Source: Serratia sp. FDAARGOS_506 (GTDB lineage Bacteria; Pseudomonadota; Gammaproteobacteria; Enterobacterales; Enterobacteriaceae). Taken from it: a DNA stretch of 64,000 nucleotides. Positions 59,874-64,000 of this stretch are shown here, piece by piece (positions within the stretch are counted from its first letter, which is position 1; every line of letters starts with the position of its first letter). The DNA is taken from the NCBI RefSeq assembly GCF_003812745.1, contig NZ_CP033831.1:1240001-1304000 (forward strand), written 5' to 3'. The notes below the pieces were generated by a model, which was given only the letters and a program-made list of their open reading frames with translations, made no database searches and was not told where the DNA came from. The position numbers and the translations under genes were made by a program.

Positions 59874-60368
59874 ATGCTGTTCAAACTATGCAAAACCCTT
59901 GCGATGGCCTGCGTGGCCCTGATTATCGCCCAGAGCAGCGCGCTCAGCTTTACCCTGGAAGTGGCGGGCAAGATCGATAACGTGACCGACCCGGTCAACA
60001 AAAGCTATCTGTTCACCGATAAACAGCTGTTGGCGATGCCGGTGCGCAGTATCACCACCTCCACTTCCTGGACGCCGCAGAGAAAATTCGAAGGGATTTC
60101 GGTGGCCGATATCCTGGAACGCGTCGGCGCCAAGGGCGAGACGCTGACCTTCTACGCGCTGAACGATTATTACATCGACGTGCCGCTGTCCGACGTCAAA
60201 AAGTACAACATGATCCTGGCCTACAAGATGGACGGGGAGATGCTGAAGCTCAGAAACTTCGGCCCGCTGTTCCTGGTTTACCCGCGCGACGCCGCCGGGC
60301 CTGAACTGAACTCACCGTTGTACAACTCGCGCTTTATCTGGCAAGTCGACAGGATCGTGATCAAATGA
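59874..60368 (+). CDS. Secreted sulfite-oxidase-fold (molybdopterin-domain-like) protein lacking the ligand cysteine
   Basis: Exported protein of 164 residues. The signal peptide covers about 1-24 (FKLCKTLAMACVALIIAQSSA). The mature part resembles a stand-alone oxidoreductase molybdopterin-binding domain (PF00174-like): LEVAGKIDNV, FEGISVADILERVG, DVPLSDVKKYNMILAYKMDGEML, GPLFLVYPRD. The cysteine that ligates molybdenum in true enzymes is absent (TTSTSW there), and no other cysteine is left in the mature chain. It overlaps the histidine kinase gene by 4 nt, so a role as periplasmic sensor or ligand-binding partner of that kinase is likely; inference. Confidence 0.75.
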   Translation: MLFKLCKTLAMACVALIIAQSSALSFTLEVAGKIDNVTDPVNKSYLFTDKQLLAMPVRSITTSTSWTPQRKFEGISVADILERVGAKGETLTFYALNDYYIDVPLSDVKKYNMILAYKMDGEMLKLRNFGPLFLVYPRDAAGPELNSPLYNSRFIWQVDRIVIK

Positions 60369-62149
60369 AGCTGACGACCTTTAAGAACGGCAGCAGGCTG
60401 GCGATCCCGGCCATCTTCGCCGCGCTGTTTCTGGTAGCGTCGACCGTCACGCTCTATTACTACAGCGCCACCCTGTCGAAGAAAGGGCTGTATGCCATCG
60501 CCGGCACGCAGGAGAACTACTCGTGGTCGATCGCCAAGTTCTCCATCAAGCTGGCAGAGTTCGACACGCTGGTCGAGCAGCAGAGCCACGCTGCGCAGGT
60601 GGACAACGACAACCTGCGGCTTCGGTTCGAAATCCTCTATTCGCGTTTTTACGTGCTGGAAACCGTCTCCGAATCGACCCAGCCGCTGTACGCCGAGCCA
60701 GGCTACCCGGAAGTGGTCAAACAGATGCGCCTGCAGATGGACCGCATCGACAAGCTGCTGGACAGCCCGAAAATCGACTTCGGCCAGGTTTCCGCTGCCA
60801 TGAAGGCCATTAAGCCTTACTCGATCGAAATGGCCAACCTGACCGACCACGCCGAGGTGAAGCAGCGCACCGCCGCCTATGAGGACTATATCGAGAAACG
60901 GCACATTATTTTCTATGGGCTGGTGATCGTCATGTTCTCGGTGATCGCGCTGGTCGCCATCACCCTGATCGTGTTCCGCCAGCAGCGGCTGACCATTCGC
61001 CAGCAGGCCAAGGCCATCGAGGCGGAGAAAGCGACGCGCACCAAAAACGCCTTTCTCGGCGCCATCGGCCATGAGCTGCGCACCTCGTTGCAGAGCGTGA
61101 TGTCGGCCATCGACGTGCTGGTGAATACCCGGGTATCAGCGGAGCATGCGGACACCTTCCAACGCCTGGAGACCGCCGCGCAGCAGATCGAAAGCCAGAT
61201 GAAGGATCTGACCGACTACGCGCACCTCGACAGCGGCATGATGGAATTGCGCATCGTGCCGTTCGACGCACAGAAGCTGATCGCGGAGACCGCCAACGAA
61301 ATCGCCACCCTGACCCGCAAAGAGCAGGTCAAACTCAGCTGTGAAGTGGAATGCAGCCACCTGCTGGTGCACTCCGATCCGCTGCGCATCCGGCAGATTA
61401 TCGTCAACCTGCTGACCAACGCCTACAAGTACACCGAAAGCGGCAGTATTACGCTGCACAGCTGCCTGCGCCGCCAACCGGGCGGCAGTTCGCTGATTAT
61501 CGAAGTGACCGACACCGGCATCGGTATCGAAAAGGACCAGCTCGATCAGATCTTCAAACCCTTTACGCAGTTGGATCAATCGCATACCAAGCAGTATGCC
61601 GGCGTAGGGATGGGGCTGGCGATCGTGCACGGCCTGGTGACACTGCTCGACGGCACCATCACGGTGTACAGCGAAATCAGGAAGGGCAGCACCTTTATCG
61701 TCAGCATTCCGGTGCAGATCAGTGAAGAAGAACGCGCCGGCGAGCCCACTGCCGCCAATGCCCCTCTGCAGCAGAAGCCGCAGCAGGTGTTGGTGGTGGA
61801 TGACAACAAGTCGGTGGGTGACGCCTTTGCGGCGCTGCTGGACAAGCTGGGTTATCAGCACGAACTGTGCGACTCGCCGGAGCGCGCGCTGCAGAAACTG
61901 CTCAGACGCCCTTACGACGCGCTGTTGCTGGATCTGCAGATGCCGGGCATCGACGGCGCCGCCCTGGCCAGACAGCTGCGCAACCGTCGCGGCCCCAACC
62001 GCCATGTGCCGATCATCGGCATCAGCGCCTACACGCCGGAGCAGTTGACGGCGGATCAGCGCGCCCTGTTCGACAACTACCTGATGAAACCGGTTCGGCT
62101 GGATGCGTTGTCAAACGCGCTGGCCGAGGTATTCCCCGCTAAAGATTAA
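60365..62149 (+). CDS. Hybrid sensor histidine kinase with C-terminal receiver
   Basis: Inner-membrane kinase of 594 residues. Helix 1 is at about 12-34, a periplasmic sensor region of no known family at 35-180 (helical by eye), and helix 2 at about 181-204. The HisKA H-box has His236 in AIGHELRTSLQSV. The ATPase domain has the N-box NLLTNAYKY (348-356), G1 DTGIGI (383-388) and G2 GVGMGLAI (413-420). The receiver domain (473-594) has acidic Asp479-480, phospho-acceptor Asp523 in LLLDLQMPG and Lys575 in LMKPV. It starts inside the upstream gene and converges on the HTH-REC gene with an 11 nt overlap. Confidence 0.9.
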   Translation: MKLTTFKNGSRLAIPAIFAALFLVASTVTLYYYSATLSKKGLYAIAGTQENYSWSIAKFSIKLAEFDTLVEQQSHAAQVDNDNLRLRFEILYSRFYVLETVSESTQPLYAEPGYPEVVKQMRLQMDRIDKLLDSPKIDFGQVSAAMKAIKPYSIEMANLTDHAEVKQRTAAYEDYIEKRHIIFYGLVIVMFSVIALVAITLIVFRQQRLTIRQQAKAIEAEKATRTKNAFLGAIGHELRTSLQSVMSAIDVLVNTRVSAEHADTFQRLETAAQQIESQMKDLTDYAHLDSGMMELRIVPFDAQKLIAETANEIATLTRKEQVKLSCEVECSHLLVHSDPLRIRQIIVNLLTNAYKYTESGSITLHSCLRRQPGGSSLIIEVTDTGIGIEKDQLDQIFKPFTQLDQSHTKQYAGVGMGLAIVHGLVTLLDGTITVYSEIRKGSTFIVSIPVQISEEERAGEPTAANAPLQQKPQQVLVVDDNKSVGDAFAALLDKLGYQHELCDSPERALQKLLRRPYDALLLDLQMPGIDGAALARQLRNRRGPNRHVPIIGISAYTPEQLTADQRALFDNYLMKPVRLDALSNALAEVFPAKD

Positions 62150-62990
62150 AACAGCGTTGCAGTGCGGCTTCGATCACATGGAGCCGCACCGGTTTTTCAT
62201 AAGGGCCGAGCACGTCGTACTCGCGCATCGCCTGAGCGATCTCAGACTCGCGTCGGTCGGTGCCCAACTCGCCGGTCAGCACCAGCACCGGCGCATCCGG
62301 GTTGTCGGAAGCGCGAATGGTGGCGATACAGCGATCCGCCGTTTCCTCGCCGATCAGCCAGTCCACCACGTAACCGTCGAACAGGCTTTGGTGCAACGCC
62401 TGGCAGAAGCTGTCGACATCGTAAAACGCCACCGCGTTGAAACCGCAGCCACCGAGATACTTGGCCAGCTCATCGGCCGCCTGATGCGAATCGTCCAATA
62501 CCGCAATGCTCAGCCGCTCGTCGTCGCCGTAGCCGGGCCGGATTTCGATCAGATCGACACCGTAACGCGGTCCTGCCGGCGCCTCATCGGCGCGATAGAT
62601 ATGCCACTGTCCCTCCGCGCGCAGCGCCACAAATTCCGCCGGCCGCCCGGCAGAAAGCTCGTCGCCAATGTGCCCGACGCAAGGCATCGCCACCCCCGCC
62701 ACGAAAAAGATGGCATCACGCGCCATGTTTGGCTCGGGAGTCTCGTGTTCGGCCCCCAAATCGGCGATCGCCGCCGGCGTTTCTCCCAACGCGGCCGCGA
62801 CGCTGTTGATCTGTTCCAGCGTCCAGGGGCTTTGCCCTTTCAGTTTGCGGTGCGCATGTGAAAAACTCAGATCCAAGATGCGGCTGAGTTCTCGGGCATG
62901 CTGACGTTTTCCAATCCCATAATGTAAAAACAGCTCCCTGACCCGATTGGCAATCGACTGTGAATCGAATTTTTGATGATTGTTATCCAT
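62139..62990 (-). CDS. HTH (BetR-like) - receiver domain regulator
   Basis: Protein of 283 residues in the reverse of the usual response-regulator order. An N-terminal helix-turn-helix (about 11-75; IGKRQHARELSRILDLSFSHAHRKLKGQSPWTLEQINSVAAALGE) of the BetR type comes first, then a middle region of about 80 residues, and a C-terminal receiver (about 162-283). The receiver has Asp166-167 (VLDDS), phospho-acceptor Asp210 (GYVVDWLIGEE), Thr239 (LVLTGE) and Lys266 (YEKPV). It is convergent with and overlaps the hybrid kinase gene, so it is the likely phosphotransfer target, directly or through a phosphotransfer protein. DNA targets are unknown. Confidence 0.85.
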   Translation of the reverse strand: MDNNHQKFDSQSIANRVRELFLHYGIGKRQHARELSRILDLSFSHAHRKLKGQSPWTLEQINSVAAALGETPAAIADLGAEHETPEPNMARDAIFFVAGVAMPCVGHIGDELSAGRPAEFVALRAEGQWHIYRADEAPAGPRYGVDLIEIRPGYGDDERLSIAVLDDSHQAADELAKYLGGCGFNAVAFYDVDSFCQALHQSLFDGYVVDWLIGEETADRCIATIRASDNPDAPVLVLTGELGTDRRESEIAQAMREYDVLGPYEKPVRLHVIEAALQRCFNL

Positions 62991-63132: not shown

Positions 63133-63345
63133 CAAAAGAGACATACAGCAATACACTATAAAAAATAACACCAGCACGTTTTTTAATAATAACCATAGTA
63201 ACACCAGGGAAAATTTGTTCCGTTGCCGCTACTGAGACGATGCCCACATCGCTCGGACTGCACAAACCAAACGGGGCTTGAGCCTTTAGCGCTAATCTGT
63301 TTTACCCACTTTTAAGCCGGGATCCGTCAGGGTCCCGGTTTTTTA
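63133..63345 (+). ncRNA. Candidate small RNA or leader between operator and terminator
   Basis: The stretch between the inverted repeat and the strong terminator at 63314-63345 has no coding frame that looks real, yet it ends with a proper plus-strand terminator not explained by any upstream gene. A short regulatory RNA is one reading; a remnant of a lost gene is another. Confidence 0.25.
63314..63345 (+). terminator. Orphan rho-independent terminator
   Basis: CCGGGATCC-GTCA-GGGTCCCGG (one G-T pair) is followed by TTTTTTA. No gene on the plus strand ends nearby. Confidence 0.75.
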
Positions 63346-63446: not shown

Positions 63447-64000
63447 TCAGAAGCGCCAGGTGAAGCCGGCGTTGACGCTGTTGTCCTGATGGTGCTGCGA
63501 CAGCAGCCCGCCGTAGCCCAGCGACAGCGTGGCGTTTTCGTTCACCGCCACTTCCGCTCCCGCCTTCAGCACCATCCCGTCGCGCGAGACCGGCACGCTG
63601 TCCACCACGAACGGCGCGTTGCCCCCGTTGAACCGCAGCCCGGTGCCACGCTCCAGCCCGCCGTACTGGTGTTGCCACCCCAGCTCGCTGCGCAGCGCCA
63701 CCGTCGTGCCCGGGGTCACCTGCCATTCGGTGTCCGCACGCAGCCCCAGCGTCGACACCGTCGCGTCGGTATGCTGTTTGTCCCCGCGCAGCGCCGCTGC
63801 GCCGCCGCTTTCCGCAATGCCGTTGTTCTCAAAGTTCACGTACGCCAGGTTCACGAACGGCTCCAGGTTCAGCCACTCACCCTGCACGCTGTAGCCCGCT
63901 TCCGCGAATAGCTGCTCGGTGCGCGCGCTGTACTTCGCCGTGTCACGGTCCGACTGCATCCCGTAGTTCACCGACCGTTTGGTGTCGATGCGGTGCCAGG
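63447..64000 (-). CDS. Autotransporter, C-terminal beta-barrel (partial, 5' end outside window)
   Basis: The frame is open from 64000 down to the TGA at 63447, giving the last 184 residues. The sequence is alternating amphipathic beta-strands typical of an autotransporter barrel (LFAEAGYSVQGEWLNLEPFVNLAYVNF, LGLRADTEWQVT, LRSELGWQHQYGG, GAEVAVNENATLSLGYGGLL) and ends in the outer-membrane signature VNAGFTWRF with terminal Phe. It would carry an outer-membrane passenger domain lying to the right of the window; the passenger (protease, adhesin or esterase) cannot be identified here. Confidence 0.88.
   Translation of the reverse strand, partial: WHRIDTKRSVNYGMQSDRDTAKYSARTEQLFAEAGYSVQGEWLNLEPFVNLAYVNFENNGIAESGGAAALRGDKQHTDATVSTLGLRADTEWQVTPGTTVALRSELGWQHQYGGLERGTGLRFNGGNAPFVVDSVPVSRDGMVLKAGAEVAVNENATLSLGYGGLLSQHHQDNSVNAGFTWRF

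Follow-up and report, generated by a model that had tools for sequence, protein, structure and literature searches.

Three described systems resemble a trio of genes, reg1, reg2, and betR, at positions 59,874 to 62,990 of the window, which is the whole 64,000-nucleotide stretch of the Serratia sp. FDAARGOS_506 genome analyzed here. The first is Reg1-Reg2-BetR (EepS/EepR) of Serratia marcescens, which shares with the trio its gene order and types, a receiver-bearing hybrid kinase, a BetR-receiver regulator, and conservation across the genus (PMC7618870). The BetR/Reg2 regulon and phenotypes are established in Serratia: the switch controls antibiotics, motility, and adhesion along with type VI secretion, and type VI activity falls upon loss of reg2 or betR function (PMC7618870). 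The second is AirMSR of Chromobacterium violaceum ATCC 31532, in which an operon encoding a secreted OxMoco protein and a hybrid-type kinase is convergent with a BetR-receiver gene (PMC7240160). Its output differs, being violacein via quorum sensing, and it is likened to the window trio by gene types, not by residues. The third is the PruR-DcpA and PruR-DTB group described for Proteobacteria, in which the gene for a small Sec-exported SUOX-fold protein without the molybdenum (Mo)-ligand cysteine lies upstream of a sensor gene and is coupled to it; the periplasmic domain of the sensor is homologous to that of Reg2 (PMC13259868). Comparison with these systems indicates that the window trio is probably a pterin-sensing two-component system of the PruR-DTB type with a BetR-receiver output.

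Identity and layout of the locus

The window trio is probably the published Serratia Reg1-Reg2-BetR locus, since the other trio in this genome has a receiver-less kinase; the match was made by architecture and genus, not by locus tag or sequence. The genes are arranged as follows.

59874..60368, forward strand: reg1 (airM/pruR type), an open reading frame (ORF) for a secreted 164-aa PruR-family protein (Pfam PF00174)
60365..62149, forward strand: reg2 (eepS/airS type), an ORF for a 594-aa hybrid histidine kinase of the PruR-DTB type (HisKA, HATPase_c, Response_reg)
62139..62990, reverse strand: betR (eepR/airR type), an ORF for a 283-aa BetR-receiver transcription regulator, convergent to reg2
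60365..60368, forward strand: 4-nt ATGA overlap of the reg1 stop and reg2 start, suggesting translational coupling
62139..62149: 11-nt tail-to-tail overlap of the convergent reg2 and betR genes

These coordinates bear out the three ORFs and both overlaps noted in a preliminary description made from the sequence alone. That description had considered the system new, a view that does not survive the literature, since Reg1-Reg2-BetR, AirMSR, and PruR-DcpA/PruR-DTB have all been published (PMC7618870, PMC7240160, PMC13259868). What is new here is the assignment of Reg1 to PruR, the family assignment of the Reg2 sensor domain, a BetR-linked branch lacking the acidic residue of the WX7E motif, and a coevolving surface formed by pocket edge and sensor motif. 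The available text on the Serratia system mentions no pterin, PruR, or AirM and calls the signal unknown and remaining to be identified (PMC7618870), and the available text on PruR mentions neither Serratia, AirM, nor Chromobacterium (PMC13259868). Filing Reg1 under PruR therefore gives that question a short ligand list and a defined docking surface, and it joins three literatures (EepRS/BetR, AirMSR, and PruR-DcpA) that are not linked in the papers examined. No paper that links EepR, BetR, or AirMSR to PruR or to pterins was found in a search that excluded subscription papers and the 2024 Proceedings of the National Academy of Sciences (PNAS) paper on PruR. The latter reportedly covers >5500 pairs and may include these species.

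Reg1 and its predicted pterin site

Reg1 matched the Pfam family Oxidored_molyb (PF00174; E = 3e-9). This placement would suit a genuine molybdoenzyme of small size, with the kinase reading its redox product or state; the following observations make this highly improbable. Reg1 lacks the Mo-ligand cysteine of SUOX-fold molybdoenzymes such as MsrP and sulfite oxidase. Its only cysteines, residues 6 and 13, both lie within the N-terminal signal-peptide stretch, so that the loss of all cysteines claimed in the preliminary description holds for the mature part and not for the whole protein. Across 297 aligned rows, columns 55 to 75 were nearly free of cysteine: columns 61, 71, and 75 each had it in a single row. 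Three Cys-bearing relatives in the same genome are longer proteins with twin-arginine signals, unlike Reg1, whose signal peptide is Sec-type without a twin arginine as judged by eye. Crystal structures of relatives have a truncated pterin site (PMC13259868). A plain Cys-to-Thr62 exchange at the Mo-Cys column was considered and dropped because one alignment places a four-residue gap in PruR there.

Searches against the PDB placed Reg1 with PruR. At E values of ≤1, Reg1 matched only four PruR sequences (7KOS, 7RKB, 7KP2, and 7KOM), the best being 7KOS (E = 2.7e-28). A 14-row Reg1 profile gave a best E value of 6.4e-52, and the next match, one sulfite oxidase, had an E value of 7e-4. The Reg1 structure model (pLDDT 90.2) superposed on 7KOS with a root mean square deviation of 1.1 Å over 138 columns (38% identity; Foldseek probability, 1.00), and 7KOS ranked before all SUOX enzymes. 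The model also fits 7RKB, a structure solved with neopterin. In viral contigs, no Reg1 relative was found; the single pattern match was not confirmed.

The review of PruR gives Asn102, Tyr104, and Trp160 as the pterin-site residues of the Agrobacterium tumefaciens protein and reports that tryptophan replaces the Mo-cysteine (PMC13259868). These residues align with N97, Y99, and W156 of Reg1, whose positions in the window are listed with the predicted docking edge.

60162..60170, forward strand: Asn-Asp-Tyr, reg1 codons 97 to 99; N97 and Y99 correspond by alignment to N102 and Y104 of A. tumefaciens PruR
60246..60254, forward strand: Lys-Leu-Arg, reg1 codons 125 to 127; predicted docking edge, with K125 coupling to Reg2 E89
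60339..60341, forward strand: Trp, reg1 codon 156; corresponds to Trp160 of A. tumefaciens PruR

The W156 column holds tryptophan in 294/297 rows, the Y99 column holds tyrosine or phenylalanine in all 297, and position 97 is either asparagine (219 rows) or aspartate (78 rows). Reg1 thus has the homology and fold of PruR, its site residues, and its combination of size (~170 aa), secretion signal, and missing Mo-cysteine. Pterin binding and contact with DcpA have been demonstrated for A. tumefaciens PruR (PMC13259868). By sequence and model, Reg1 belongs to this pterin-binding family and would itself bind a pterin; a pterin, one of a group of small redox molecules resembling vitamins, is therefore a concrete candidate for the signal of the system. 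The preliminary description had named molybdopterin binding by the secreted protein as grounds for rejecting its proposal. That ground comes close to the present reading itself: PruR proteins do bind small pterins, in a truncated site that lacks the length to hold the complete molybdenum cofactor (PMC13259868).

The Reg2 sensor domain and its coevolution with Reg1

Pfam recognized HisKA, HATPase_c, and Response_reg domains in Reg2, and its best NCBIfam match was TorS; PruR-DTB kinases are likewise TorS/BaeS-like (PMC13259868). The features of Reg2 are as follows.

60470..60904, forward strand: periplasmic four-helix sensor domain, approximately residues 36 to 180, homologous to DcpA/DTB-type domains by profile alignment and model
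60524..60550, forward strand: W54 to K62, the WX7E motif position, with Trp retained and Glu replaced by Lys
60626..60646, forward strand: residues 88 to 94 (FEILYSR), second conserved sensor motif by alignment and couplings
61043..61237, forward strand: HisKA domain, with the phosphoacceptor His236 at 61070-61072
61376..61717, forward strand: HATPase_c domain (Pfam)
61787..62122, forward strand: C-terminal receiver domain, with Asp523 at 61931-61933

The periplasmic region, previously said to be of no known family, was compared by hhalign with 114 WX7E-type PruR partner domains. The alignment covered 120 columns with a probability of 98.4 and an E value of 5.1e-15, and the reversed-sequence control gave an E value of 0.14. 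This finding overturns the earlier statement: at the level of sequence profiles, the Reg2 sensor domain is homologous to DcpA/DTB-type domains, and reg1 and reg2 have the two-gene PruR-DTB operon form of PruR gene, homologous periplasmic domain, and TorS/BaeS-like kinase. When the sensor model was compared with structures (VIA, Foldseek), only general helical bundles were returned. The match to XylFII-LytS (PDB 5XSJ) did not rise above this helical-bundle background, and no relationship to it is claimed.

Reg2 retains W54 of the WX7E motif and has lysine at position 62. Since WX7E is carried by the vast majority of PruR partners and not by every one (PMC13259868), Reg2 is therefore a variant. 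A tree of 297 rows was built without the tested columns. In it, 69 BetR-linked rows formed a single clade (support, 0.994), beside which stood six rows of the type found next to rpoC in this genome; the joint ancestor (support, 0.543) has 76 leaves and also includes the untyped locus L197. L197 (genome G765) has a PruR-like gene whose next same-strand gene encodes a receiver-LuxR type regulator, not a sensor. In total, 75 rows were assigned to the BetR-linked group. Of these, 47 show betR itself, and in the remaining 28, which are Serratia relatives of Reg1, the locus stops short of betR. All 75 have lost the WX7E acidic residue (K in 29, V in 21, A in 20, R in 4, and S in 1), in contrast to 222 other rows, 172 of which have E or D. 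The motif tryptophan is retained in 69/75 and falls in a gap in the six rpoC-type rows. The BetR-linked clade thus differs from PruR-DcpA/DTB in lacking this acid and in having a BetR regulator as the third gene (PMC13259868).

Loss of the acid might mean that fold and docking are the same as in PruR while the ligand of the BetR-linked clade is a nonpterin or is absent, so that Reg1 would report something else, for example products of translation stress, the state of the envelope, or a molecule from a competitor. AirMSR does respond to translation-inhibiting antibiotics in one Chromobacterium strain (PMC7240160), but not in C. violaceum ATCC 12472. However, all 75 BetR-linked rows retain N/D97, Y99, and W156, which would be surprising in a protein without a ligand. 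We consider this alternative unlikely and favor a pterin ligand.

Couplings between Reg1-type and sensor proteins were calculated from 367 loci, of which 347 had a PruR-sensor pair and 20 did not; 296 rows were unique. The gene after PruR encoded a kinase in 255 of the 347 loci, a GGDEF protein in 40, and an untyped product in 52. The downstream ORF was untyped in 52/296 rows and in some of them unrelated (L197, L206, L207, and L212); the analysis was repeated without these 52, leaving 245 rows including the window. Across the PruR-sensor family, E89 of Reg2 couples to position 125 of Reg1, and R94 couples to positions 97 and 127. That the pocket edge and the sensor motif coevolve supports contact between Reg1 and the sensor. 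The BetR-linked rows alone yielded no couplings, their alignment being too shallow (Meff = 14.3). In the wider PruR sample, betR was found in 3/98 nine-kilobase loci besides the named set, all of family f194. Four loci from the order of G702 (L382, L388, L389, and L390) have PruR, then an approximately 1,010-aa kinase, and then a separate receiver-bearing ORF, without BetR.

The couplings also bear on whether Reg1 works apart from Reg2, as a chaperone or bystander, with co-occurrence reflecting operon heritage only. Mutations are enriched in reg2 and betR and not in reg1 (PMC7618870), which would suit such a reading. Against it stand the couplings, the contact demonstrated for PruR and DcpA in A. 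tumefaciens, and the finding that airMS restores the Chromobacterium response whereas airS alone fails, so that airM is required beside airS (PMC13259868, PMC7240160). We regard independence of Reg1 from Reg2 as very unlikely and retain the view that Reg1 acts through the sensor.

Conservation, phosphotransfer, and the candidate signal

A scan of named genomes with the Reg1 alignment gave 88 pattern matches, of which 58 were confirmed as loci (Serratia, Burkholderia, Paraburkholderia, Robbsia, and Ottowia). Although these loci were found via the secreted protein alone, a kinase and a receiver-bearing regulator adjoin Reg1 in 58/58, indicating that the linkage is not due to chance. A BetR N-terminal domain was detected by single-sequence search in 57; that of L103 was detected only with a profile that includes L103 itself. 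betR is convergent downstream in 30 loci and upstream in the same direction in 28. L099 and L103, both Serratia, have a third Reg1 type with the regulator upstream in the same direction, and the L103 regulator has a divergent N-terminal domain or a misread start. betR lies approximately 1.06 kb away in L072 and L078 and 2.7 kb away in L070, an Ottowia metagenome-assembled genome with a split kinase; L085 is cut by a contig end. In L059 (S. proteamaculans CCUG 14510), the betR ORF is short (214 aa), and in L067 (S. rubidaea NCTC12971), reg2 and betR are broken across several frames; these defects may reflect either true inactivation or mistakes in the sequencing.

Within the genus sample, a Reg1 orthologue of at least 83% identity was present in 27/30 genomes, and the remaining three genomes are 1.5 to 2.5 Mb in size. 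Searches at the genus, class, phylum, and order levels covered samples of genomes, with Reg1-type matches in 27/30, 11/369, 64/398, 48/399, 80/385, and 57/371 genomes; the query behind 11/369 was narrower than the others. Together, linkage and coevolution uphold the proposal of a single unit in which a cofactor-less molybdopterin-enzyme fold acts together with two partners, the hybrid kinase and the BetR-receiver regulator. The observation made in the preliminary description is confirmed, and its interpretation is partly supported. The regulator has the following domains.

62535..62960, reverse strand: BetR domain, betR residues 11 to 152 (PF08667; E = 1.6e-34)
62178..62507, reverse strand: receiver domain, betR residues 162 to 271, with Asp210 at 62361-62363 and Lys266

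The Pfam match of the C-terminal Response_reg domain was weak (23.3 bits, below its 30.2 cut-off). The N-terminal BetR and C-terminal receiver order was described correctly, but it is not unusual, being the order of AirR (PMC7240160) and of the named loci.

Asp523 and Asp210 are present as claimed, as is His236. A full phosphorelay, His236-Asp523-Hpt-Asp210, is a tentative reading to which we give somewhat less than even weight. Reg2 has a receiver, as do the kinases of 52/58 named loci (of the other six, five have none and a contig end truncates the last), and both this route and direct transfer from His236 to Asp210 are offered for the Serratia system (PMC7618870). A second full trio in the same genome, adjoining rpoC (L008:7332-9969; G000:C2, ~1777331-1779968), bears against a need for the relay. 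Its kinase has 424 aa and no receiver domain, and its partner is a BetR-receiver protein, so direct transfer to BetR is possible. The two-component phosphorelay of the preliminary description therefore stands as to its phospho-residues, while multiple steps are not required. In this second trio, Reg1 has Asp at position 97, and the sensor has no Trp aligned at the WX7E motif.

We propose the following mechanism for the window trio. Sec would export Reg1, which has the sulfite-oxidase fold without the cofactor. In place of the molybdenum cofactor, its shortened pocket would hold a small pterin, most likely one of the tetrahydropterins, for example tetrahydromonapterin. The genome holds a FolM-type dihydromonapterin reductase gene with 66% identity to E. 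coli FolM and the TGX3RXG motif, which is associated with pteridine reductases (PMC13259868). Loaded Reg1 would dock pocket edge first on the Reg2 four-helix domain, near W54/62 and FEILYSR, and so set kinase activity. Reg2 may then phosphorylate BetR at Asp210, either directly from His236 or through Asp523 with the help of a separate Hpt protein. BetR would in turn alter how genes for competition, motility, and secondary metabolites are transcribed. Since loss of reg2 or betR lowers type VI activity and airMS but not airS restores the Chromobacterium response, the M/Reg1 protein appears to act positively with the kinase, at least there. Pterin-loaded Reg1 may accordingly raise Reg2 kinase output to BetR.

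We see an even chance that a reduced pterin, carried by Reg1/AirM, is the missing signal of both the Serratia pioneering/resilient lifestyle switch and the Chromobacterium antibiotic response. In this proposal, Asn/Asp97 is a two-letter code read by sensor positions 54, 62, and 94, and the BetR-linked clade is a branch retuned by loss of the WX7E acid. If so, pterin redox state or pterins that neighbors release would tell the bacteria when to compete.

The DNA flanking the trio is 95 to 96% identical to loci named S. marcescens, S. ureilytica, and S. nevei. Upstream of betR, the best hit in a CRP-site scan was a two-mismatch site at 63233, which was not counted as evidence. On the reverse strand at 63447-63998 lies the C-terminal portion of an ORF that leaves the window end and resembles an autotransporter beta-barrel.
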